The notes: generated by a model from the sequence alone, not told the origin. A DNA stretch of 32,648 nt from a virus (IMGVR_UViG_3300046000_000794:1-32648), one strand, 5' to 3'. Counted from the stretch's first letter, positions 14,427-25,136 are shown. Made by a program: numbers and translations.

Positions 14427-15119
14427 ATGAACTACACCGCGTTGACTGATGCCATCTGCGATTACACGCAGAACTTTGAATCGGATTTTGTTGCGAACAT
14501 CCCGGTGTTTGTCCAGCAGGCTGAGCAGCGCATCTTCAACACGGTGCAGTTCCCTTCGATCCGTAAGAACGTCACCGGGTCTGTGTCTGCCAACAACAAA
14601 TACTTGTCGTGCCCAACTGATTTTCTTTCTGCCTTCTCTATGGCAGTCATTGACGCAGACGGGCGCTTTGAGTACTTGCTGAACAAGGATGTGAACTTCA
14701 TCCGGCAGGCATACCCAACGCCGACAAGCACGGGTCTTCCTCGTTACTACGCCCTGTTTGGCCCGACGGTAGCAGGTGCAACCATTTCCGATGAGCTGTC
14801 GTTTATCCTTGGCCCCACGCCGGATGCAGCCTACAGCGTTGAGTTGCATTACTACTATTATCCAGAGTCGATCTCGGTAGCAGCGTACGGCCAGACTTGG
14901 TTGGGCGACAATTTCGATACTGTCTTGCTGTATGGCTCTTTGGTAGAGGCTTATACCTTTATGAAGGGCGAAGCAGACATGCTGGCCCTGTACGACGGCA
15001 GATACAAAGAAGCTCTGGCTTTGGCTAAACGTCTGGGTGATGGGTTGGAGCGCAGCGATGCGTACCGCAGTGGACAGTCGCGCGTTGCGCCGCTGCCGCA
15101 GAATACCGGGGTGGTCTAA
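14427..15119 (+). CDS. Head-tail connector/adaptor-like protein
   Basis: This 230-residue protein begins MNYTALTDAICDYTQNFES and has DFVANIPVFVQQAEQRIFN at about residues 19-37, a helical signature I recall from phage neck adaptors. A beta-rich centre (SFILGPTPDAAYSVELHYYY) and C-terminal helices (LLYGSLVEAYTFMKGEADML) follow. It resembles proteins that bind portal or tail tube in short-tailed phages and follows the gp4-like gene by 1.7 kb. It contains no insert of the kind seen in the gp4-like protein. Exact position in the neck is unproven. Confidence 0.7.
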   Translation: MNYTALTDAICDYTQNFESDFVANIPVFVQQAEQRIFNTVQFPSIRKNVTGSVSANNKYLSCPTDFLSAFSMAVIDADGRFEYLLNKDVNFIRQAYPTPTSTGLPRYYALFGPTVAGATISDELSFILGPTPDAAYSVELHYYYYPESISVAAYGQTWLGDNFDTVLLYGSLVEAYTFMKGEADMLALYDGRYKEALALAKRLGDGLERSDAYRSGQSRVAPLPQNTGVV

Positions 15120-15542
15120 TTGGCTTTCACCGGCAACTACTCCTGCAACACGTTGCGTTCGGGCCTTGTCAATGGCACGATCAACTTTGCCTCGGATACG
15201 TTCTATCTGGCGCTGTACACCAACTCTGCAACGCTGGATCAAACCACCACCGCGTACACCGTGACTGGTGAGGCATCAGGCGGCAACTATGTTGCAGGCG
15301 GTTCTGTTGTTACCGCAACAATCTCTAGCGAAGCTACCTCGGGGGGTAGCGTTACGTACGTCAACTTCTCGTCTCCCGCGTGGACTGGTGTGCTAACGGC
15401 GCGTGGCGCGTTGATCTATACGCCCGGTGACAACGGTGCCGTGTGCGTGCTGGACTTTGGCTCGGACAAGACCTCAACCACCTCTTTCACGGTGCAGATG
15501 CCAGCTAACACCAGCACCTCTGCGCTTATCCGCCTTGTTTAA
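15120..15542 (+). CDS. Structural protein, TTG start
   Basis: The reading frame begins at TTG 15120 directly after the preceding stop; no in-frame ATG gives the conserved N-terminus MAFTGNYSCNTLRSGLVNG. The 140-residue product (DTFYLALYTNSATLDQTTT, GNYVAGGSVVTATIS, FSSPAWTGVLTARGALIY) is an all-beta, charge-poor protein seen before fibre genes in many environmental phages as I recall. It is probably a virion surface or tail-tip component. Function is not known. Confidence 0.7.
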   Translation: MAFTGNYSCNTLRSGLVNGTINFASDTFYLALYTNSATLDQTTTAYTVTGEASGGNYVAGGSVVTATISSEATSGGSVTYVNFSSPAWTGVLTARGALIYTPGDNGAVCVLDFGSDKTSTTSFTVQMPANTSTSALIRLV

Positions 15543-15551
15543 GGATCAATC

Positions 15552-16157
15552 ATGCAAAAAGAACTTTCAAATTTTGGCGATCACGCACAGGTGACCATGC
15601 AGTCCAATGTGGCTGGCGCTGAGTCTGTCGGTGTTGAGGGCTACTATCATGTGGTCTGCCGCGCTGCTGATGGCAGCATCAAGTGGCAAGATGAGTTCCC
15701 CAACTTGGTCAACGCCGTGGGCAAAGAGCTGATGCTGGATACCCTGCTGTCTGGTAGCTCGTACACCACCGTGGGTCCGTTCCTCGGTCTGATCTCTGGC
15801 GCAAGCCCGACGTTTGCTGCTGCGGACACCATGACTTCTCACGGTGGCTGGACTGAGTTCGTCAACTACACGGTGGGTGGTTCTGCTGTGCGGGGCACGG
15901 CATCGTTTAGCGCGGCCACCTCCACGGGTACTACGCCGACCAACGTGACGACCAAGACTGCCACGGCTATCACCTACACCATCACGGGCGCGGGCGGTAC
16001 GGTGGGTGGCTGCTTCTTGGTAACCGGCTCTGGCGCGTCTTCGACGCAAAGCAACACCTCGGGCACGCTGTATAGCGCAGGGGCGTTCTCCACAGCCAAA
16101 GTTACCACGGCAGGCGACACGGTTAGCGTTACCTACTCGACCACGGCTACGAGTTAA
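15552..16157 (+). CDS. Tail-region structural protein
   Basis: This 201-residue protein has AAGGA six bases before its ATG. VEGYYHVVCRAADGSIKWQD is followed by FPNLVNAVGKELMLDTLLSG, then long Thr/Gly/Ser-rich beta segments with a single VGGCFLVTGSGASS motif. This pattern is common in phages between neck and fibre genes, and is probably a virion component. Low charge and Thr content match the neighbouring fibres. No enzyme motif is seen. Confidence 0.7.
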   Translation: MQKELSNFGDHAQVTMQSNVAGAESVGVEGYYHVVCRAADGSIKWQDEFPNLVNAVGKELMLDTLLSGSSYTTVGPFLGLISGASPTFAAADTMTSHGGWTEFVNYTVGGSAVRGTASFSAATSTGTTPTNVTTKTATAITYTITGAGGTVGGCFLVTGSGASSTQSNTSGTLYSAGAFSTAKVTTAGDTVSVTYSTTATS

Positions 16158-16171
16158 TAAAGGAGTCTTAA

Positions 16172-17551
16172 ATGGCTCTGGTCCTCGCAAACCGTGTCCA
16201 AGAATCGGCCACGGCGAATACCACTGTAAGCTTTACGCTGACCGGCGCGGTTGCGGGCTTTCAGACGTTTGCTGTCATTGGTGACACCAACACCACCTAT
16301 TATTCCTCCACAGACACGGCGGGTAACTGGGAGGTTGGTCTTGGCACGTACTCCACGAGCGGCCCCACGCTGACCAGAACGACCATCTACGCCTCCAGCA
16401 ATACTGGTAGCGCGGTCACCTTCTCTGGTACGGTCAGCGTCTTCGTCACCTACCCGTCGGGCAAGTCGGTCAATCTGGATGGCAGCGGCAACGTCTCTGC
16501 GCTGGGGACCGTAGCTTCTGGCACATGGCAGGGATCGACGATTGGCGTGGCGTATGGCGGTACTGGGGTCACGGCATCGTCTGGTGCCAACTCGGTGATG
16601 CTGCGCGATGCCAACGAGAACGTCGCGGTTAACCGTTTAAATCAGGCAAACACTTCCACGACGGCTTCGGCAGGCACCACTGCGCTGACAGCGGCTTCGA
16701 CGTACTCCCAAACCCTCAACGGCACTGGCGGGCATACCTATACGATGCCGGATGCAACCACCTTGACTACCGGGGTGGCGTTTGTATTCAACAACAATGC
16801 TACAGGCACCCTGACTTTGCGGGACTACGCCTCGGGGCTTGTTGGGACAATTACTTCGGGCGGTGCGGCTGAGTTGGTGTTACTGGCTAACGGCACGGTT
16901 GCGGGTACTTGGGACGTTCATGCGTTCCTGCCTGAGAACGTGACTTGGGGTACGGACGCTCTGTATCTCAACTCAACCATCGTCACCGGCGGTACGTGGA
17001 ACGGCGGCACCATTCAGCCAGCCTACGGCGGCACGGGTCTGACCACTTTCACGGGCGCGAACAACGCTCTGTATTCCACCGGGGCAACGAGCCTGACTGC
17101 GGGAACCTTGCCGATTGTGGCGGGTGGCACGGGTCAAACGACTGCGAATACTGCATTTAATGCACTTGCACCCAGCCAAGGGGGTAACTCAGGCAAGTAC
17201 CTGACGACGGATGGCACGGACACTTCGTGGGCTACGGTTTCTGGAAGTGGTGCAACGATCTCCAACGATACGAGCACAGCCACTAACGTCTACCCGTTGT
17301 TCGCTGCGGCAACTTCTGGCACGCCCAGTACGATTTACACCAGCAACGCCAAGCTGCTCTACAAGCCCAGCACGGGAGATTTGCAGTCCAGCGCGGTCAC
17401 GGCCAGCAACGGCATCTTTGTAAGCGCAGCGTTGGTTACCAGTTCCTACACGGTGGCCTCGGGCAATAACGCTTCCAGCACAGGCCCACTTGTTGTGGAT
17501 TCAGGTGTGACGGTGACGGTAGCATCTGGCGGTCGCTGGGTTGTAATCTAA
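16172..17551 (+). CDS. Tail fibre protein with GGTG repeats (Z-type end)
   Basis: This 459-residue protein has a strong AAGGAG site. The N-terminus (MALVLANRVQESATANTTVS) followed by a beta domain (GNWEVGLGTYSTSGPTLTRT) is a common virion-attachment region of phage fibres. The middle has repeated fibre motifs: SGTWQGSTIGVAYGGTGVT, GTWNGGTIQPAYGGTGLT and VAGGTGQTTANTAFNAL. The last ~35 residues (SYTVASGNNAS ... VTVTVASGGRWVVI) form the module called Z here, which recurs at the end of the 19646 product. It probably trimerises and heads the fibre cluster; receptor specificity is unknown. Confidence 0.78.
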   Translation: MALVLANRVQESATANTTVSFTLTGAVAGFQTFAVIGDTNTTYYSSTDTAGNWEVGLGTYSTSGPTLTRTTIYASSNTGSAVTFSGTVSVFVTYPSGKSVNLDGSGNVSALGTVASGTWQGSTIGVAYGGTGVTASSGANSVMLRDANENVAVNRLNQANTSTTASAGTTALTAASTYSQTLNGTGGHTYTMPDATTLTTGVAFVFNNNATGTLTLRDYASGLVGTITSGGAAELVLLANGTVAGTWDVHAFLPENVTWGTDALYLNSTIVTGGTWNGGTIQPAYGGTGLTTFTGANNALYSTGATSLTAGTLPIVAGGTGQTTANTAFNALAPSQGGNSGKYLTTDGTDTSWATVSGSGATISNDTSTATNVYPLFAAATSGTPSTIYTSNAKLLYKPSTGDLQSSAVTASNGIFVSAALVTSSYTVASGNNASSTGPLVVDSGVTVTVASGGRWVVI

Positions 17552-17560
17552 GGGATACAC

Positions 17561-18763
17561 ATGAGCCGCATTGCATTTAACGGAAACGCGCTGGGCACCG
17601 GCACAGTAACCATTGCCTCGCCCAATACGAACTCCGACAGAACGCTGACTCTGCCGGATGAGACCGGGACGGTGTTATTGAATGGTGGGGCTGCTTCGTT
17701 TTCGACCCTGACGGTCAGCAGTAACAACATCTCTGCTGTGAACAGCTTGGGCTTTCGCAACCGCATCATCAACGGCGATATGCGGATCGACCAGCGGAAT
17801 GCTGGGGCGAGTGGAACTAGTAATGACACCTATGTTGTAGATCGCTGGGCGTATTTTGGTTCACAGGCTTCAAAAGCAACTTGGCAACAAAACGCTGGTT
17901 CTATTACTCCGCCCGCAGGATTTTCAAATTACTTTGGTTTTACATCTTCTTCTGCTTATTCAGTAGGGGCATCTGAGCTATTTGTTTTTTCGCAAAAAAT
18001 CGAAGGTTTTAACACAAGCGATTTAAACTTTGGAACAGCCAACGCCCAGACAGTAACTTTGTCTTTTTGGGTACGTAGTTCTCTGACGGGCACGTTTGGC
18101 GGGTATGTAGCAAACTCAGCACAAAACAGAAATTATCCTTTTTCATACACAATTTCATCTTCTAATACTTGGGAGCAAAAGTCAGTAACAATTGCTGGTG
18201 ATACCACGGGCACTTGGATTGGTGGGACAAACGGTATTGGTATGCGTGTTGGGTTTAGTTTAGGTATAGGCTCAACTAATTCAACAACTGCCAACGCTTG
18301 GAACGGCACTGCCAATGCTATTGGAGTTACCGGCGCAACCTCTGTAGTCGGCACCAACGGAGCCACCTTCTACATCACCGGCGTCCAGCTTGAAGCAGGC
18401 TCAGTTGCAACGCCGTTTGAGCGCAGGGACTACGGGCGTGAGTTGATCATGTGCCAGCGGTATTGTTTTGTTCCAGCATCAAATTCTCGTTATGTTGGTC
18501 AGTGTGACTCAACAACTAGAGCCTTAATCATATATGTGTTTCCACAAACAATGCGATCTGGTCCAGCTGCAACACTAGCATCTGCGGCTACTTATACTGT
18601 AACAACTGCCGCTGGCGGGACTGTTGCTGGAACCGCCGTGTCGTTAAGTGGGGGATTTTTAGATAGTGCTCAAATTGGAATAACTGTTGCATCTGGGTTA
18701 GTTGCTGGAAATGCAACATTGGTTACAGCAAACGGTACAACCATATTTTCAGCGGAGTTATAA
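17561..18763 (+). CDS. Tail fibre with INGDMRIDQR binding-like domain (B-type start)
   Basis: This 400-residue protein starts with the B-type leader (GTGTVTIASPNTNSDRTLTL then PDETGTVLLNG), also seen at 20553. NRIINGDMRIDQRNAGAS and YVVDRWAY mark a jelly-roll domain common in phage fibres, probably carbohydrate-binding. ITGVQLEAGSVATPFERRD closes it. The C-terminal ~110 residues are variable. Base composition alternates: a hand count gives about 35% GC at 17941-18000 against about 57% at 18361-18420, suggesting that variable segments were exchanged between conserved seams. It is probably a receptor-binding component. Confidence 0.72.
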   Translation: MSRIAFNGNALGTGTVTIASPNTNSDRTLTLPDETGTVLLNGGAASFSTLTVSSNNISAVNSLGFRNRIINGDMRIDQRNAGASGTSNDTYVVDRWAYFGSQASKATWQQNAGSITPPAGFSNYFGFTSSSAYSVGASELFVFSQKIEGFNTSDLNFGTANAQTVTLSFWVRSSLTGTFGGYVANSAQNRNYPFSYTISSSNTWEQKSVTIAGDTTGTWIGGTNGIGMRVGFSLGIGSTNSTTANAWNGTANAIGVTGATSVVGTNGATFYITGVQLEAGSVATPFERRDYGRELIMCQRYCFVPASNSRYVGQCDSTTRALIIYVFPQTMRSGPAATLASAATYTVTTAAGGTVAGTAVSLSGGFLDSAQIGITVASGLVAGNATLVTANGTTIFSAEL

Positions 18764-18925
18764 ATGTATAAGTTAGAAAAACCAGATACAACCGACAATA
18801 TTGTCAAAGTTGTTAAAAGACTTGCTGACAACGCCTTCATCCCCTTCGACCCCGCCAACACCGACTACCAGCAGTACCTCGCGTGGCTGGCCGCTGGCAA
18901 CACGCCGCTGCCTGCTGAGGAATAA
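18764..18925 (+). CDS. 53-residue fibre-associated protein
   Basis: This short ORF begins one base after the preceding stop, with GGAG upstream. It encodes [20 protein letters not shown] followed by [20 protein letters not shown] and a [10 protein letters not shown] end. The FIP-x-DP-x-N-x-DYQ-x-YL-x-WL-x-x-GN signature is widespread at the ends of tail-fibre or fibre-assembly proteins. It probably aids fibre folding or caps the preceding fibre. The first half of the gene is AT-rich and the second GC-rich, so it spans a composition boundary. Confidence 0.75.
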
Positions 18926-18928
18926 CCA

Positions 18929-19642
18929 ATGTCCACCATCAACTCCAAGAACGTACAGGTCGGCACATCTAACGTGGCGGCGGAAAACTTCACGCTGTAC
19001 CAGCCGAGCACCCCGGACGGCACGGTTCGCCTTGGCGTTGGTAACTCTGGTGCCACGACTGCGGATGTGGTGACGGTCAATAGCGCTGGCGTGACGGTTA
19101 CTGGGTCTGTGGCCGCTACGACCGGCACATTTAGCGGTGCGGTTCAAGCCAGTGGGGTTACGACTAATTTGTACCCATTAGTCTCAGGCACCGCTGTTGC
19201 TTCAACCTCGGGCACCAGCATCGATTTCACGAGCATCCCCTCTTGGGTTAAAAATATTACGGTGATGTTTAACGGGGTTAGTGGAAGTGGATCATCTGAT
19301 TTTTTGTTTCAATTAGGCGATTCTGGCGGTATTGAGACGACAGGCTATTTAGGAGCTGGGTCTGTAGTTGGTGCAAGCGTGACTACCACAAACTACACAG
19401 CAGGATTTGGGTTTGCTGGTGGTGGAGTAACAGCAAAAGTTTGGCAAGGTGCAATTCGTTTTGCAAATATTACTGGCAATACTTGGGTTGCTGACGGCGT
19501 TTTTGCTCGATCTGATGGAGCTAATACCGCGCTAGTTGCAGGTGGTAAATCGCTTACTGATGTCCTTGACCGCGTCCGCATAACTCATGTCAACGGCACT
19601 GATACGTTTGACGCTGGCACTATTAATATTTTCTACGAGTAA
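18929..19642 (+). CDS. Mini tail fibre, N-module A + C-module X
   Basis: This 237-residue protein has GAGGAA upstream. Residues 1-47 (module A: NFTLYQPSTPDGTVRLGVG, NSGATTADV) are nearly identical to those of the 21033 product. Residues 80-237 (module X: LYPLVSGT, STSGTSIDFTSIPSWVK, ITVMF, LDRVRIT, VNGTDTFDAG) match the 20007 product. Within X the ends are conserved and the centre diverges, as expected for receptor-facing loops. It probably trimerises as a short fibre or fibre-tip protein. Receptor and virion location are unknown. Confidence 0.72.
   Translation: MSTINSKNVQVGTSNVAAENFTLYQPSTPDGTVRLGVGNSGATTADVVTVNSAGVTVTGSVAATTGTFSGAVQASGVTTNLYPLVSGTAVASTSGTSIDFTSIPSWVKNITVMFNGVSGSGSSDFLFQLGDSGGIETTGYLGAGSVVGASVTTTNYTAGFGFAGGGVTAKVWQGAIRFANITGNTWVADGVFARSDGANTALVAGGKSLTDVLDRVRITHVNGTDTFDAGTINIFYE
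19031..19068 (+). repeat. 38-bp exact direct repeat, copy 1
   Basis: These 38 bases (CTTGGCGTTGGTAACTCTGG onward) are identical to 21135-21172. They encode the end of module A in two different mini-fibre genes 2.1 kb apart. Bases just outside differ at several synonymous positions, so the exact identity marks a possible recombination seam or recent duplication. Confidence 0.95.
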
Positions 19643-19645
19643 CCC

Positions 19646-20005
19646 ATGAGCACGATTGCAGTCAACGCCATCAACCCAACGTCTGGTACGCTGACTGTTG
19701 GCAGCACGGGGCAGTTTGTCCCTTCTGTAGGTACGACAGGTGAGCGGCCTACACCCGTACAGGGTGGCTTCCGGTTCAACACCACGCTTATCAAGTTTGA
19801 GGGCTACAACGGGACCGCGTGGTCTGCTGTGGGTGGTGGGGCTACGGGCGGTGGCAGTGACAACATCTTTATCGAGAACGGCCAGACGGTGACCACGAGC
19901 TATAGCATTCCCTCTGGCAGCAACGCCGGTACGTTCGGCCCGGTCAGCATCGACGCAAGCGCAGTAGTGACGGTTCCCTCTGGCTCTGTTTGGACGGTGG
20001 TTTAA
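19646..20005 (+). CDS. Mini tail fibre, N-module D + C-module Z
   Basis: This 119-residue protein follows the previous stop by three bases without a clear ribosome site, so reinitiation is likely. The N-terminus (MSTIAVNAINPTSGTLTVG) leads to ERPTPVQGGFRFNTTLIKFE and GYNGTAWSAVGGG, a beta motif common in phage fibres. The last ~40 residues (SYSIPSGSNAGTFGPVSID, VVTVPSGSVWTVV) correspond to the Z ending of the 16172 fibre. It is a very short fibre consisting almost entirely of shared modules. Its role is inferred from context. Confidence 0.7.
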   Translation: MSTIAVNAINPTSGTLTVGSTGQFVPSVGTTGERPTPVQGGFRFNTTLIKFEGYNGTAWSAVGGGATGGGSDNIFIENGQTVTTSYSIPSGSNAGTFGPVSIDASAVVTVPSGSVWTVV

Positions 20006-20006
20006 T

Positions 20007-20549
20007 ATGGCTATTACGATGGACGGAACCTCTGGGATTACCACCCCTGCGGTTCAAACCGGCGGGGTTGCTGTTAGCTTGTACCCCCTAGTCTCCGGCA
20101 CTTCTCAGGCGTCCACCTCTGGCACGAGCATCGACTTCACCAGCATCCCGTCTTGGGTGAAGCGAATCACGGTGATGTTTCAAGGGGTAAGTGGAAGTGG
20201 AACAAGTGCCAAATTAGTTCAGATAGGAACTTCAGGAGGAATTGAGGCTACTGGTTATTTATCAACAAGTAGTCTTTTGGGCTCCGCTTCAGGCGTAACC
20301 GCAAACTCAACTGCCGGTTTTATATGTAACAGCGCCTCGGCTTCAGAGGTTATTTCCGTAATTTTTACTATTGTAAATATTTCTGGGAATGCTTGGGTAA
20401 GTTCTTACACGGGGAAAGTAGCCACAACAACCACTGCTTATGGTGGTGGGGATAAAACGCTTTCAGGGACTCTTGACCGCGTCCGCATCACCACCGTCAA
20501 CGGCACCGACACCTTCGACGCCGGTTCCATTAACATCTTGTACGAGTAA
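20007..20549 (+). CDS. Mini tail fibre, N-module C + C-module X
   Basis: This 180-residue protein starts one base after the preceding stop with no Shine-Dalgarno. It opens with a short leader (MAITMDGTSGITTPAVQTGG), called C here and widespread in phage fibres. Residues 24-180 are module X: SLYPLVSGT, STSGTSIDFTSIPSWVK, TLDRVRITTVNGTDTF and INILYE. Its partner at 18929 has the same module on a different leader. The central ~80 residues have diverged, while the flanks remain near-identical in protein and similar in DNA. Confidence 0.72.
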   Translation: MAITMDGTSGITTPAVQTGGVAVSLYPLVSGTSQASTSGTSIDFTSIPSWVKRITVMFQGVSGSGTSAKLVQIGTSGGIEATGYLSTSSLLGSASGVTANSTAGFICNSASASEVISVIFTIVNISGNAWVSSYTGKVATTTTAYGGGDKTLSGTLDRVRITTVNGTDTFDAGSINILYE

Positions 20550-20552
20550 GCC

Positions 20553-21023
20553 ATGAGCCTGAAACTAAACTCCTCCGGCGGCGGCAGTGTCACTCTGCAA
20601 GAGCCAAGCACGGCGAGTAACCTGACGTTGACGCTGCCAGATGCGACGGGCACGGCGGTGATTCAAAACGGCAGCAACAACTTGCTGATGAACTCGGGGT
20701 ATGGCTCGGATGCTGTGGCCTATGGCTGTAGGGCTTGGGTGAAATTCAACGGCACTGGCACTGTGACGATAAATGGCAGTGGGAACGTGTCTAGCATTAC
20801 GGATAACGGGACTGGTAACTACACCATAAACTTTACGACCGCAATGCCTGACGACACATATTCTGTTGCTGGATGGGCTTGTGATAATAATAGCGGTGGT
20901 AACCAGACTATTGTAAGTGCGTTTGCAAACCACACATATTCTGCATCAGCGTGTCAAATCTATTGCTATGAAACATCTGCCACAATTGATCCAACAAGAG
21001 TTTGTGCTACTTTTTTCCGTTAA
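20553..21023 (+). CDS. Mini tail fibre, N-module B + C-module Y
   Basis: This 156-residue protein carries the B-type leader (GGSVTLQEPSTASNLTLTL, PDATGTAVIQNG), as at 17561. Residues 47-156 are module Y: NSGYGSDAVAYGCRAWVKF, GNVSSITDNGTGNYTINF, TTAMPDDTYSVAGWA, ending ATFFR. Module Y recurs in the next gene on a different leader. The GCRAWVKFNG core with a C-terminal FR is a fibre-tip pattern I recall from environmental phages. The gene follows the previous stop by three bases with only a weak ribosome site. Confidence 0.72.
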   Translation: MSLKLNSSGGGSVTLQEPSTASNLTLTLPDATGTAVIQNGSNNLLMNSGYGSDAVAYGCRAWVKFNGTGTVTINGSGNVSSITDNGTGNYTINFTTAMPDDTYSVAGWACDNNSGGNQTIVSAFANHTYSASACQIYCYETSATIDPTRVCATFFR

Positions 21024-21032
21024 AGGACAAAC

Positions 21033-21539
21033 ATGAGCACTTTAAAAACAAACAACGTGCAGGTAGGCCAGTCGGCCACAGCCACCAACAACTTCACGTT
21101 GTATCAGCCAAGCACGCCTGACGGCACGGTGCGTCTTGGCGTTGGTAACTCTGGTGCCACGACTGCGGATGTCGCCAGCTTCAATTCGTCCGGTGTGTTT
21201 GCGTTTAACTCGGGATATGGGTCGTCTGCCACCGCCTTTGGCTGTCGTGCTTGGGTGAACTTCAACGGCACGAGTACGGTGGCGATTCGTGCCAGTGGGA
21301 ATGTAAGTTCGATCACGGATAACGGCACGGGCGACTATACGGTCAACTTCACGACGGCGCTGGCGGATGCAAATTATTCGGCGCAAGTGTGGGCGGCGAC
21401 TGCTGGCTCAACTGGTGTATTCATCCCAACTCAAAGCTCTACCACTGTTCCAACAACGTCTGCGTTAAGGCTTGTCACTCGAAACGGTTCAGCAACAGCA
21501 AACGACTTAGACTACGTTCAAGTCGCCATCTTCCGTTAA
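21033..21539 (+). CDS. Mini tail fibre, N-module A + C-module Y
   Basis: This 168-residue protein has AAAGGA upstream. Residues 1-47 are module A, shared with the 18929 product. Residues 59-168 are module Y (GYGSSATAFGCRAWVNFNG, GNVSSITDNGTGDYTVNF, ending QVAIFR), shared with the 20553 product. It is therefore a direct hybrid of two other genes in the array. The last third of module Y has diverged completely between the copies, as expected for a host-contact surface. Confidence 0.73.
   Translation: MSTLKTNNVQVGQSATATNNFTLYQPSTPDGTVRLGVGNSGATTADVASFNSSGVFAFNSGYGSSATAFGCRAWVNFNGTSTVAIRASGNVSSITDNGTGDYTVNFTTALADANYSAQVWAATAGSTGVFIPTQSSTTVPTTSALRLVTRNGSATANDLDYVQVAIFR
21135..21172 (+). repeat. 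38-bp exact direct repeat, copy 2
   Basis: Identical to 19031-19068. It lies at the boundary between the A leader and the Y body of the 21033 gene, exactly where a module exchange would have to occur. Confidence 0.95.
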
Positions 21540-21551
21540 CAAGGAGCAACC

Positions 21552-21734
21552 ATGAGAATCATTTATCCCACCGACGACGGCGGCGTGGCCGTCATCATTC
21601 CTGCTGCCGAGTGCGGCCTGACGATTGAAGAGATCGCAGCCAAAGATGTGCCCGCAGGCAAGCCTTACCAAATCGTGGATGTCGCTGACATCCCGTCTGA
21701 CCGCACCTTCCGTGGTGCATGGGAGTACGCATGA
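21552..21734 (+). CDS. 60-residue tail-region protein
   Basis: This small acidic protein has a strong AAGGAG site. It reads MRIIYPTDDGGVAVIIPA, CGLTIEEIAAKDVPAGKPY and ADIPSDRTFRGAWEYA. The pattern is common immediately after fibre genes, paired with a helical partner as here, and resembles the N-terminal part of tail-fibre assembly proteins. It probably assists fibre folding or attachment, an inference from context. Its stop overlaps the next start (ATGA). Confidence 0.75.
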   Translation: MRIIYPTDDGGVAVIIPAAECGLTIEEIAAKDVPAGKPYQIVDVADIPSDRTFRGAWEYA

Positions 21735-21958
21735 TTTCCGTCAACATCCCCAAGGCAAAAGCCATTGCCCACGATATGCGCCGTGCAGCGCGGGCGGCAG
21801 AGTTTGCCCCATACGACGAGGCCATTGCCAAACAAATCCCCGGCCAGATGGAAGGCGCAGAAGCTGCCCGTCAGGTTATCCGGGACAAGTACGTAGCCGT
21901 ACAAGCCGCGATTGATGCCGCTGCTACCCCGGACGAGATCAAGGCCGCGCTGGCGTAA
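21731..21958 (+). CDS. 75-residue helical partner, fibre-assembly-like
   Basis: The start at 21731 (MISVNIPKAKAIAHDMRRAA) overlaps the preceding stop as ATGA, preferred over 21719, which lies inside the upstream gene. The protein is alpha-helical and Ala-rich, with PYDEAIAKQIPGQMEGAEAA and a C-terminal DEIKAALA. It resembles the helical domain of fibre-assembly proteins, and with the 21552 product may act as a split chaperone for the fibres upstream. No direct evidence exists in the sequence beyond pairing and coupling. Confidence 0.72.
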   Translation: MISVNIPKAKAIAHDMRRAARAAEFAPYDEAIAKQIPGQMEGAEAARQVIRDKYVAVQAAIDAAATPDEIKAALA

Positions 21959-21960
21959 AC

Positions 21961-22932
21961 ATGTTCGGAATTGCAAGCTTCGCCCAGACCTCATTTGCCT
22001 CACTGGCAGGGGCAAGCTTTTCCGAATCCGTGACGGAGGCCGTGTCTGCTGCCGACGCTAGTACTCAGTTGTCTGCGTTCCTTCAGTCCATCAGCGAGGC
22101 CATTACCGAGAGCGAGATTGAGATCACCGGAGCTGGGCTGTTCTTTGGCACCATCAACGAGAACCTGAACTCCAACGACGCCAGCACGCAGCTATCGGCC
22201 TACCTTCAGTCGATTAGCGAGAACTCTAATTTAAACGATACCCCCGTCATCGCAGCCCAGTTTGCCCAGTCGGTTACAGAGAACGTGGACATGGCGGACA
22301 TCTTGGTGCCATTTTTTGCTGCACTGCAAACCCGGCAAGAGGACATCATTGAGGTGGCCGACGCCAGCGCCCAGCAGTCCACTTTCGGCCAGTCCATCAC
22401 CGAGAACGCCAACCTGAACGACACCCCGGCTATCACAGCGCAGTTTGCCCAGTCTGTATCTGAGGGTTCTACGCTGGGCGACATTAACGCCATTGCCGCG
22501 CAGTTCGCCGCTTCTGTCGCGGAAAACACGACGGTTGCTGATGTCAGCACGATTGTCAACGCATTCTTCCTTGCAATCACGGAGAACTTCTCTCCCGCTG
22601 ACGCCCCGACGGCAATTCTGGTCTTCACGGTCTCCGTCTTTGAGAATTTAAACAGCGCCTCCATTCAAACGGTTGCGGCTGGGTTCAATGTGGCAGTGGC
22701 CGAAAACTCGGTCTTGGCCGACAGCTTTGGCGTGGGCGGCTGGATCAAGATCATCAGCACCCAGAACCCTGACTGGGTCAACATCACCGATACACAGACT
22801 CCCGGCTGGGCGGTCCTCAGCAACACGCAGGGTACCGGGTGGACAACCATCGCCACCAGTCAGACCCCCGGCTGGTCCGGCATAGATGACAGCCAGACCC
22901 CCGGGTGGCAAAATATCAATAATTCCCAATAA
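21961..22932 (+). CDS. Two-scale repeat protein (20-residue and 11-residue repeats)
   Basis: This 323-residue protein is almost wholly repetitive. Residues ~21-260 consist of about twelve 19-22-residue repeats of the type QSITENANLNDTPAITAQFA (conserved S-[IV]-[ST]-E-[NA] then N/A-D). Residues 261-323 are six 11-residue repeats beginning at Trp261, 272, 283, 294, 305 and 316 (WVNITDTQTPG type, ending WQNINNSQ). Regular spacing suggests a solenoid or beta-helix stalk capped by a Trp/Gln-rich tip. It is acidic, has no Cys, and lies among fibre genes, so a structural or adhesive role is likely. I do not recognise an assigned family. Confidence 0.75.
   Translation: MFGIASFAQTSFASLAGASFSESVTEAVSAADASTQLSAFLQSISEAITESEIEITGAGLFFGTINENLNSNDASTQLSAYLQSISENSNLNDTPVIAAQFAQSVTENVDMADILVPFFAALQTRQEDIIEVADASAQQSTFGQSITENANLNDTPAITAQFAQSVSEGSTLGDINAIAAQFAASVAENTTVADVSTIVNAFFLAITENFSPADAPTAILVFTVSVFENLNSASIQTVAAGFNVAVAENSVLADSFGVGGWIKIISTQNPDWVNITDTQTPGWAVLSNTQGTGWTTIATSQTPGWSGIDDSQTPGWQNINNSQ
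22021..22740 (+). repeat. About twelve degenerate 60-bp coding repeats
   Basis: Protein-level period is about 20 residues (60 bases). Recurring phrases are QSISEN, QSVTEN, QSITEN, ASVAEN and LAITEN followed by L-N-D or V/M-A-D. DNA copies have diverged, so the array is old compared with the exact 38-bp fibre repeats. Confidence 0.8.
22741..22929 (+). repeat. Six 33-bp coding repeats with regular tryptophans
   Basis: Each unit encodes W-x2-I/L-x2-[TS]-Q-x-P-G/D over 11 residues, with the last unit truncated at the stop. The Trp spacing is exactly 11 across the whole segment, and T/S-Q at positions 7-8 is invariant. Confidence 0.9.
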
Positions 22933-22941
22933 GGAACATCA

Positions 22942-23760
22942 ATGAGCACCTATTCCCCCAGCCTGCGGATCGAACTGATCACGACGGGCGATCAAGCCGG
23001 TACGTGGGGTAACACGACCAACATAAACCTTGGGACGCTGCTGGAGTCGGGTATCTGCGGTTACACCTCCGTTTCGGTGATCTCGGCAAACCAAGCTTTC
23101 ACCGCCCTGAACGGCGCGGCGGATGAAGCACGCCAACAAACCATCGCCCTGACAACTACTACCAGCGCTAACTTTGCGGTCTACGCTCCGCCGGTTGAAA
23201 AGACGTACATCATCTATAACGCCAGCGCCTACGTTGCCACACTTTACAACTCCACGGTGATTGGTAACACGACGGCTGCTGGTGCTGGGGTAGCCATTCC
23301 TGCGGGCAAGACTATGACGGTCTGGTCTGAGGGCACCAACTTTGCCTTTCAAAATACCTTGTTGGTAGGCAACGTGGTTGGCGATGTGGTTGGCAACTTA
23401 ACTGGCAACGTGACCGGCAACGTGACTGGCACAGCAACCAATGCCACCAACGCCACCAACATCAACATTAGCGCGACGACAAGTTCGGACACTACGACTT
23501 CGCTGGTGCTGGTGGGTGCGCAAGCTACGGGCAACCAACTACCGTTTATTGATAGCGGTTTGGCATATAACGCCAACACAAACACTTTGAGCACGGACAA
23601 TGTGGCGATTGGCGCTGGGACTATAACCACCACTAACTGGACTATTACAGAATCCGCCGGAAAACTTGTGTTTAGCTACAGCGGTGTAGCCAAGTTCTCG
23701 ATTGATTCTTCGGGCAACACAATTGCTACCAGCAACGTCACCGCCTACGGAACGCCGTAA
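22942..23760 (+). CDS. Tail/fibre structural protein
   Basis: This 272-residue protein has an AAGGA site. The N-terminus (MSTYSPSLRIELITTGDQAG, TWGNTTNINLGTLLESG) with NGAADEARQQTIALTT is a familiar virion-protein signature in aquatic phages. The centre has a shaft-like run, VVGNLTGNVTGNVTGTATNA, and the C-terminus (WTITESAGKLVFSYSGVAKF) is a fibre-end beta motif. It probably forms a trimeric fibre with a virion-bound base. Receptor specificity is unknown. Confidence 0.75.
   Translation: MSTYSPSLRIELITTGDQAGTWGNTTNINLGTLLESGICGYTSVSVISANQAFTALNGAADEARQQTIALTTTTSANFAVYAPPVEKTYIIYNASAYVATLYNSTVIGNTTAAGAGVAIPAGKTMTVWSEGTNFAFQNTLLVGNVVGDVVGNLTGNVTGNVTGTATNATNATNINISATTSSDTTTSLVLVGAQATGNQLPFIDSGLAYNANTNTLSTDNVAIGAGTITTTNWTITESAGKLVFSYSGVAKFSIDSSGNTIATSNVTAYGTP
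23392..23427 (+). repeat. Three tandem 12-bp repeats (GNVT codons)
   Basis: GGCAACTTAACT, GGCAACGTGACC and GGCAACGTGACT are consecutive, encoding GNLT-GNVT-GNVT in a fibre shaft. In-frame 12-base units allow shaft length to change by slippage. Confidence 0.85.
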
Positions 23761-24674: not shown

Positions 24675-25136
24675 ATGGACCCCATAACCGCATTTGCTGC
24701 TGCACAAGCTGCGGTGCTTGGCATTCAAAAGGCTATCAAGCTAGGCAAGGACATTAACGGCCTTGTTGGTGAGTTTGGTAAGTTTTTTGATGCGCGTGAT
24801 GCAGTTCAAAAGGCTGCTAACGATGCGGGCAAATCCGGAAAATCAGATACCGGAAGGGCTATGGAAATAGTCATGCAGGCCAACCAACTGCGCGAATCTG
24901 AAGAAGAATTAAAGCATCAGTTGGTCTACGGCGGCTACCCAGAAATCTGGGAGATGATGCTCAAAGAGCGCATGAAGATTAAACAAGCCCGAGAGCGGGC
25001 TGAGCGGGTTGCAGAAATTGAACGCAAGAAGGTGTCCGCCCAAAGGCTTCTAATGGCACAGGTTGTTGGCGGTGCTATTTGTATCGTTACTATTGGTATT
25101 GTCGTGATATTCATCATTAAACAGGCAGTTTCGTGA
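24675..25136 (+). CDS. Lysis-region coiled-coil protein with C-terminal membrane anchor
   Basis: This 153-residue protein has an N-terminal helical region (MDPITAFAAAQAAVLGIQKA), a charged coiled coil at about 92-122 (MLKERMKIKQARERAERVAE) and one C-terminal membrane helix at about 128-149 (VVGGAICIVTIGIVVIFII). It opens a cassette leading to holin and endolysin. A tail-anchored topology with a cytoplasmic coiled coil is likely. It could regulate the holin or anchor a complex, but no lysis family is recognised. Its stop overlaps the next GTG start. Confidence 0.68.
   Translation: MDPITAFAAAQAAVLGIQKAIKLGKDINGLVGEFGKFFDARDAVQKAANDAGKSGKSDTGRAMEIVMQANQLRESEEELKHQLVYGGYPEIWEMMLKERMKIKQARERAERVAEIERKKVSAQRLLMAQVVGGAICIVTIGIVVIFIIKQAVS

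Follow-up and report, generated by a model that had tools for sequence, protein, structure and literature searches.

Slot-specific leaders and exchangeable ends in a fibre-gene array of an uncultured podovirus-type phage

How do neighbouring fibre genes of one phage come to share their beginnings with one gene and their endings with another? The question is raised by a stretch of 32,648 bases (IMGVR_UViG_3300046000_000794; hereafter the window), a complete IMG/VR record of an uncultured virus that is probably a piece of a larger genome. Seven fibre-type genes, F1 to F7, lie in it at 16172-21539, and each can be divided into an N-terminal module (leader) and a C-terminal module (end). A first-pass annotation had read them as a combinatorial array of reassorted leaders and ends, serving either for the display of several fibres at once or as a library of ends for switching. 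All seven open reading frames (ORFs) were confirmed, on the plus strand (Table 1), and their products are mostly small, at 119–459 amino acids (aa).

We split each ORF into leader and end and scored all pairs by Smith-Waterman alignment against 200 shuffles. From this comparison we observed that leader A is shared by F3 and F7 (42/55 positions identical, z 28), end X by F3 and F5 (90/154, z 46), end Y by F6 and F7 (48/70, z 30), end Z by F1 and F4 (21/49, z 14) and leader B by F2 and F6 (18/36, z 14). A sixth pair that passed the loose cut, the leader of F2 against the end of F6 (z 3.4), was taken as noise. The genes F1 to F7 are therefore composed as E+Z, B+W, A+X, D+Z, C+X, B+Y and A+Y. All five sharings claimed in the first-pass annotation were recovered in this domain-wise alignment, and no other module was common to any two of the genes. 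At the DNA level, sharing was visible for A (91.6% over 83 bp), X (74% over 214 bp) and Y (74% over 152 bp), and for B and Z it was detectable at the protein level only. The pairings are not a product of low-complexity sequence.

Related arrays were collected in six scans of IMG/VR, which gave 424 loci, or 344 groups once overlaps were merged (cited below by L numbers); modules were assigned with hidden Markov models (HMMs) built from the window, at a permissive cut-off of E 1e-3. Every contig is of metagenomic origin, and many of them are short. We observed that A1 leaders (F3 type) separate from A2 leaders (F7 type), and B1 from B2 likewise. Leaders A and B are thus each shared by two genes, as had been noted, yet as paralogous, slot-specific lineages and not as one and the same leader. 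In the 19 contigs with at least three slots each, the leaders follow the order E-B1-A1-D-C-B2-A2-G3-G4 with only 2 of 68 neighbours broken, where 34 breaks are expected by chance and the lowest number among 2,000 shuffles was 24. One of the two breaks is a hybrid A leader of L162, which is A2-like at most diagnostic sites in bases 10–33 and A1-like at nearly all from base 37. Near-complete slot series with other ends were seen in L163 and L086, C being detected there by HMM only. The block B1-A1-D is absent from L003, L162, L082, L180 and L183; a simple Z-to-Z deletion was not adopted as the explanation, because in L162 and L003 the conserved F1 body is followed by another Z allele. The seven genes, real as they are, do not make up the whole array: it continues beyond 21539, where it had been taken to end, into G3 and G4, which have conserved leaders and in relatives bear swapped X or Y ends.

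The ends behave differently from the leaders. Leader A was found with X (3), Y (26), W (1) and other ends (17); leader B with X (49), Y (41), Z (2) and others (84); leader C with X (16), Y (5), W (2) and others (12); leader D with Z (5); and leader E with Z (62) and Y (5), all of which are counts of combinations and not frequencies, since the loci were fetched using these same modules. The clearest case is slot C. There, the leader DNA of the window is 100% identical to that of L003, and that of L082 to that of L183, with 62% identity between the two groups; the DNA of end X is 100% identical between the window and L082 and 94% between L003 and L183, with 60–61% between groups. In these four contigs, two leader alleles and two end alleles thus form every possible pairing, an outcome that can only arise by recombination between leader and end. 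For the window, the C+X junction rests on one assembly, and both its parents were observed independently.

The same ends also cross from one slot to another. End W follows B1 in the window, A1 in L164 and A2 in L183; between L164 and the window, the A1 leader is 94% and the start of the W end 91% identical in DNA. A Y end of slot A2 in L003 is 94% identical in DNA to one of slot B2 in L177. More generally, 50 gene pairs agree at 93% or more in the leader and at less than 70% in the remainder, and three pairs have ends at least 93% identical and leaders below 75%, one of them spanning slots A2 and B2. The array therefore combines two of the properties by which clusters of multiple receptor-binding proteins are recognised, namely adjacent fibre genes with position-characteristic N-termini (slot order in 66/68) and the same C-terminal module on different positions. 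Leader-end pairs vary among the relatives, with F4 behaving as fixed. We concluded that the leaders are unshuffled and inherited in a conserved order, and that the ends are the mobile part. Of the reassortment of leaders and ends proposed at first, the exchange of ends stands by DNA-level comparison of relatives, and the shuffling of leaders does not.

The exchange reaches beyond close relatives. The window and L082 share an exact block of 548 bp, which runs from the YPLVSGT motif opening end X to a point within the TLTLPD motif of leader B2. The capsid protein of L082 has its best match in PHROG 267 and that of the window in PHROG 371, with no significant similarity between the two, and over the 11 kb available the two phages have nothing in common beyond the fibre cassette, G1, G2 and a further small gene. 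The block is a recent exchange with a phage of unrelated capsid. Other genes of the array recur at 97% protein identity (F1, in L162/L164) and 95% (F7, in L082), and the end of F6 is identical in protein to that of L176. The last contig has window-type genes from D on (91–95% identical in DNA; G3, G4 and G5 98–100% in protein), and its upstream part differs, with another fibre gene and portal arrangement.

For each shared module of the window, 10–151 foreign modules outscored its partner in the window. The window partners are never each other's nearest kin, so the ends were recruited separately from a pool common to many phages. This disposes of the idea that the mixed pairing was made by shuffling inside this genome; the pattern of the window is that of old slot-specific leaders with ends recruited separately from the pool. 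Copying within a genome was seen elsewhere, the X ends of slots A2 and C in L184 being sisters (98/97 support).

We consider it quite probable that the array joins slot-specific leaders to exchangeable tips, and that several short fibres are made together from a cassette in which seven to nine genes for short fibres or adhesins are co-expressed, in a podovirus-type phage. Each N-terminal leader would dock its fibre on the tail or on an adjacent fibre, and the C-terminal end would contact the host surface. Ends would be replaced by homologous recombination, presumably during co-infection, with crossovers at the leader/end border motifs (TLPDxTGT following leaders B; YPLVSGT..ASTSGT opening X) and at a further site inside Y (YTVNFTTAxxDxNY). 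A two-crossover exchange may move the end of gene n together with the leader of gene n+1, and with these two moved as a unit the slot order would be kept.

Assignment of the proteins to tail fibres is consistent with several matches. F2 matches the tail fiber protein family PHROG 4492 (2e-52). Among 70 relatives scanned, nearly all picked for an A, B or C leader with other ends, Peptidase_S74 intramolecular chaperones were found in 14, Gly-rich domains in 15, and C1q and BclA_C in one each, and many of these relatives match PHROG tail-fibre families. A Pfam scan of the seven window proteins gave no match past the cut-off and no C-terminal Peptidase_S74 domain. The AlphaFold2 (AF2) model of F6, which carries end Y, has the tailspike of phiAB6 (5jsd) as its top Foldseek match (E 1.8e-3, probability 1.00, template-modelling (TM) score 0.42). 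The AF2 model of F3 has a predicted local distance difference test (pLDDT) score of 82, with end X mostly above 90. For the structural identity of end X, Foldseek offered only weak candidates, the lambda tail fibre (1.3e-3, TM 0.16) and the galectin-like MIC1 (TM 0.40), and neither was accepted.

Several points weigh against slot-specific leaders with exchangeable tips made together. The Foldseek match of end Y misses 1e-3; end X, confidently modelled, is yet without a convincing solved structural relative in Foldseek; and the leaders match no solved docking domain, their AF2 confidence being about 55–75. F4 (D+Z) is a fixed pair in 4/4 relatives with F4, with no swapping in the sample. The array is known here from metagenomic sequences alone, and no isolate matched it over most of its length; a nucleotide search of phage isolates gave zero matches. 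Finally, a single short tail could bear seven to nine distinct trimeric fibres only with branching or mixed occupancy. We advance only tentatively, and at somewhat less than even chances, the stronger form of a plug-in array, in which all seven to nine fibres would be displayed at once, each leader standing for one position of attachment, and their ends would circulate among co-infecting phages with unrelated capsids through crossovers at border motifs. If this is true, each virion would be a multivalent, rapidly re-mixed sampler of host surfaces.

Could the proteins instead be structural decorations, such as head fibres or glycan-binding coats, whose ends swap for other reasons? The leaders' want of a known tail-docking match would fit, as would the presence of Y and X ends in large virion proteins of many kinds. 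The genome context points the other way. Terminase, portal, head and tail genes of the window resemble those of podoviruses (HTVC023P/HTVC027P, CRP-901/902, Planktothrix Pag-Yong1 and the Caulobacter RW group; portal identity to these isolates 28–44%). A tail tubular protein A-type gene, assigned by a tblastn match to an annotated tail tubular protein A, is followed by two small genes and then by F1–F7, and the array is flanked by this tail-tube gene and by endolysin/stabilisation genes. Tail tubular protein A is the usual fibre attachment ring in podoviruses (PMC10386132). This location, directly after the tail-tube gene, together with the Peptidase_S74 ends of relatives and the PHROG tail-fibre matches, makes the decoration reading unlikely.

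A switching library, in which one or a few slots would be active at a time, with the rest keeping ends in reserve for a dedicated retroelement or inversion system, would account for several alternative ends in one array and for the same ends in different slots of related phages. Every copy, however, has its own start codon and leader, and purifying selection was found wherever it could be tested: the ratio of nonsynonymous to synonymous substitution (dN/dS), for whole genes or ends, was 0.12–0.29, with 0.13–0.23 for F1, 0.12 for F4, 0.13 for F6 and 0.14 for F7. The window is a fragment, and absence of machinery from it alone would be weak; in 20 records (the window and 19 relatives, several of 54–69 kb), we found no reverse transcriptase (PF00078, 0/20), no resolvase/invertase (PF00239, 0/20) and no integrase (PF00589, 0/20), and there are no inverted repeats of at least 20 bp at 15500–22000. 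Retroelement diversification and inversion or site-specific switching were both rejected on these grounds. Internal promoters or terminators that could mark silent copies were also discarded, fewer signals being present than in shuffles. The genes are close-packed, with stop-to-start gaps of 1–10 bases and the single exception of 165 bases between F2 and F3. Because the genes are close-packed and intact, are under purifying selection and come with no switching machinery that we could find, their sequences make co-expression and simultaneous use more likely than switching, which we regard as very unlikely.

Plain tandem duplication within a lineage followed by divergence finds some traces in the array: the B-A ... 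B-A order looks as if a block of leaders had been duplicated long ago, A1 and A2 have an exact run of 38 bp in common, and the sister X ends of L184 could be read in the same way. Such duplication predicts that leaders and ends stay paired, against which stand the 4/4 combinations at slot C, and the nearest kin of each module are found in other phages and not in its window partner. For the ends it is refuted by these two comparisons, and as an account of the whole array it is highly improbable; an old duplication of leaders is likely as background to the slot-specific leaders. Hardly credible is the joining of fibre genes from co-occurring phages at common motifs during assembly, for which the uncultured origin of the IMG/VR record and the slot C junction overlap of only about 30 identical bases might speak, since exact repeats between array genes reach 38 bp at most, less than the usual final k-mers of assemblers, whole F4, F6 and F7 are contiguous in independent contigs, and the slot order and pairings recur in many contigs.

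The closest known system is that of the Kuttervirus tailspike clusters. In Kuttervirus and other Ackermannviridae, tailspike proteins TSP1–TSP4 are clustered receptor-binding genes set by conserved, position-specific N-termini (PMC8432352, PMC11414711); receptor modules 91–100% identical occur on different TSPs and a conserved border motif, GTTAVSL, was proposed as the crossover site (PMC8432352), and recombination between tsp genes was observed in the laboratory (PMC11414711). The array shares with these clusters the position-specific N-termini, the same end module at different positions and a conserved border motif. Kuttervirus spikes are large beta-helix proteins, at most four, joined by gp10-like XD domains, whereas the window has seven to nine mostly small proteins in a podovirus-type phage, with different leaders and border motifs and with exchange across capsid families; no XD/gp10 domain was found by Pfam in the seven proteins, and GTTAVSL is absent.

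Comparable mobility is known from aquatic phages, in cryoconite phage pan-genomes, where host-recognition gene variants are interchanged on stable cores (PMC7468147), and in metaviromic islands with interchangeable host-recognition variants (PMC3909814). Those phages have near-identical cores, independently shuffled tail-fibre and C1q variants and tail-fibre C-termini more variable than the N-termini, in one or few islands, and the window has a multi-slot array with slot-specific leaders and ends crossing slots. In T-even phages, according to Tetart 1998 as cited in PMC7468147, distal fibre adhesin tips are exchanged by recombination between conserved motifs; tips are exchanged at conserved motifs in both systems, at a single fibre locus there and in an ordered array here. 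Podoviruses of the HTVC023P/HTVC027P type have a like set of head and tail genes and several tail or collar genes after the tail-tube gene; they differ in the low portal identity given above and in the want of an isolate match over most of the array. An excess of tail-fibre genes was noted in podovirus PhiGT1 (PMC10386132).

Among cases of a known route by which phages change attachment, the array is unusually long and clear. Most earlier examples of tip exchange involve a single fibre, or at most four spikes, of cultured enterobacterial phages; here it is followed through many uncultured contigs and more positions, with the rule that leaders stay and ends move, with mapped crossover borders, and with transfer of ends between phages whose capsids are unrelated. 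Multivalent tails in aquatic phages, and one common tip pool for phages sharing a host, become testable, and similarity of fibre ends says little about how phages are related or which host they infect. The only relative in a bacterial genome, on one 3-kb contig of a metagenome-assembled genome binned as Actinomycetota, is too weak for naming a host.

Table 1. Features of the window: genes and modules of the fibre array, neighbouring genes, and exact repeats
Feature	Position	Strand	Remarks
Tail tubular protein A-type gene	14427-15119	+	upstream of array
F1	16172-17551	+	leader E 16172-16501, long middle, end Z 17405-17548
F2	17561-18763	+	leader B1 17561-17692, end W 17705-18760
53-aa accessory ORF accompanying end W	18764-18925	+	phrog_20370 (2.4e-13), function unknown
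F3	18929-19642	+	leader A1 18929-19093, linker, end X 19172-19639
F4	19646-20005	+	leader D 19646-19855, end Z 19856-20002; fixed pair
F5	20007-20549	+	leader C 20007-20081, end X 20082-20546
F6	20553-21023	+	leader B2 20553-20672, end Y 20685-21020
F7	21033-21539	+	leader A2 21033-21197, end Y 21201-21536
G1 and G2	21552-21958	+	two small conserved genes after array
G3	21961-22932	+	further slot; leader bears Y end in L183
G4	22942-23760	+	further slot; conserved leader (aa 1-135) with end X in L003, end Y in five others
548-bp block identical to L082	20080-20627	+	end X of F5 plus leader of F6
38-bp exact repeat	19031-19068 and 21135-21172	+	in leaders A1 and A2

Some further features of the array and its relatives were observed. 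The accessory ORF directly behind end W bears a motif of 24 residues (letters not shown), and a similar ORF of 56 aa lies behind W in another slot in L183; this small gene seems to travel with end W. G3 is made up of degenerate repeats (SITEN..L.D..) and, behind these, tandem QTPGW..I..TQ units, and its first ~22 residues head the Y-ended protein of L183, which has 103 aa. G4 of the window has 272 aa; its counterpart in L003 (L003:9091-11637) has the same leader, is closed by an X end and reaches 848 aa. Behind the fibre cassette, phages of both capsid types have a gene of 153 aa (24675-25136, phrog_32327), 73–99% identical, which seems to move together with the cassette.

In L176, a fibre gene with a C-like leader and a C-terminus reading like a Peptidase_S74 chaperone (L176:2658-3737) precedes the D slot; it was among the 70 relatives scanned for domains, and downstream the rest of its contig is nearly the same as the window. 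Several Y-ended short genes lie near the array in L125 (3072-6665) and L340 (4600-8232), and the identity between relatives breaks inside Y, after YTVNFTTA..D.NY, so that end Y has a hypervariable tip of its own. L162 has, immediately upstream of F1, a homing endonuclease gene (L162:1537-2211; phrog_314, 6.7e-19), in a relative that is 95–96% identical, and this endonuclease might promote exchange of the adjoining fibre region.

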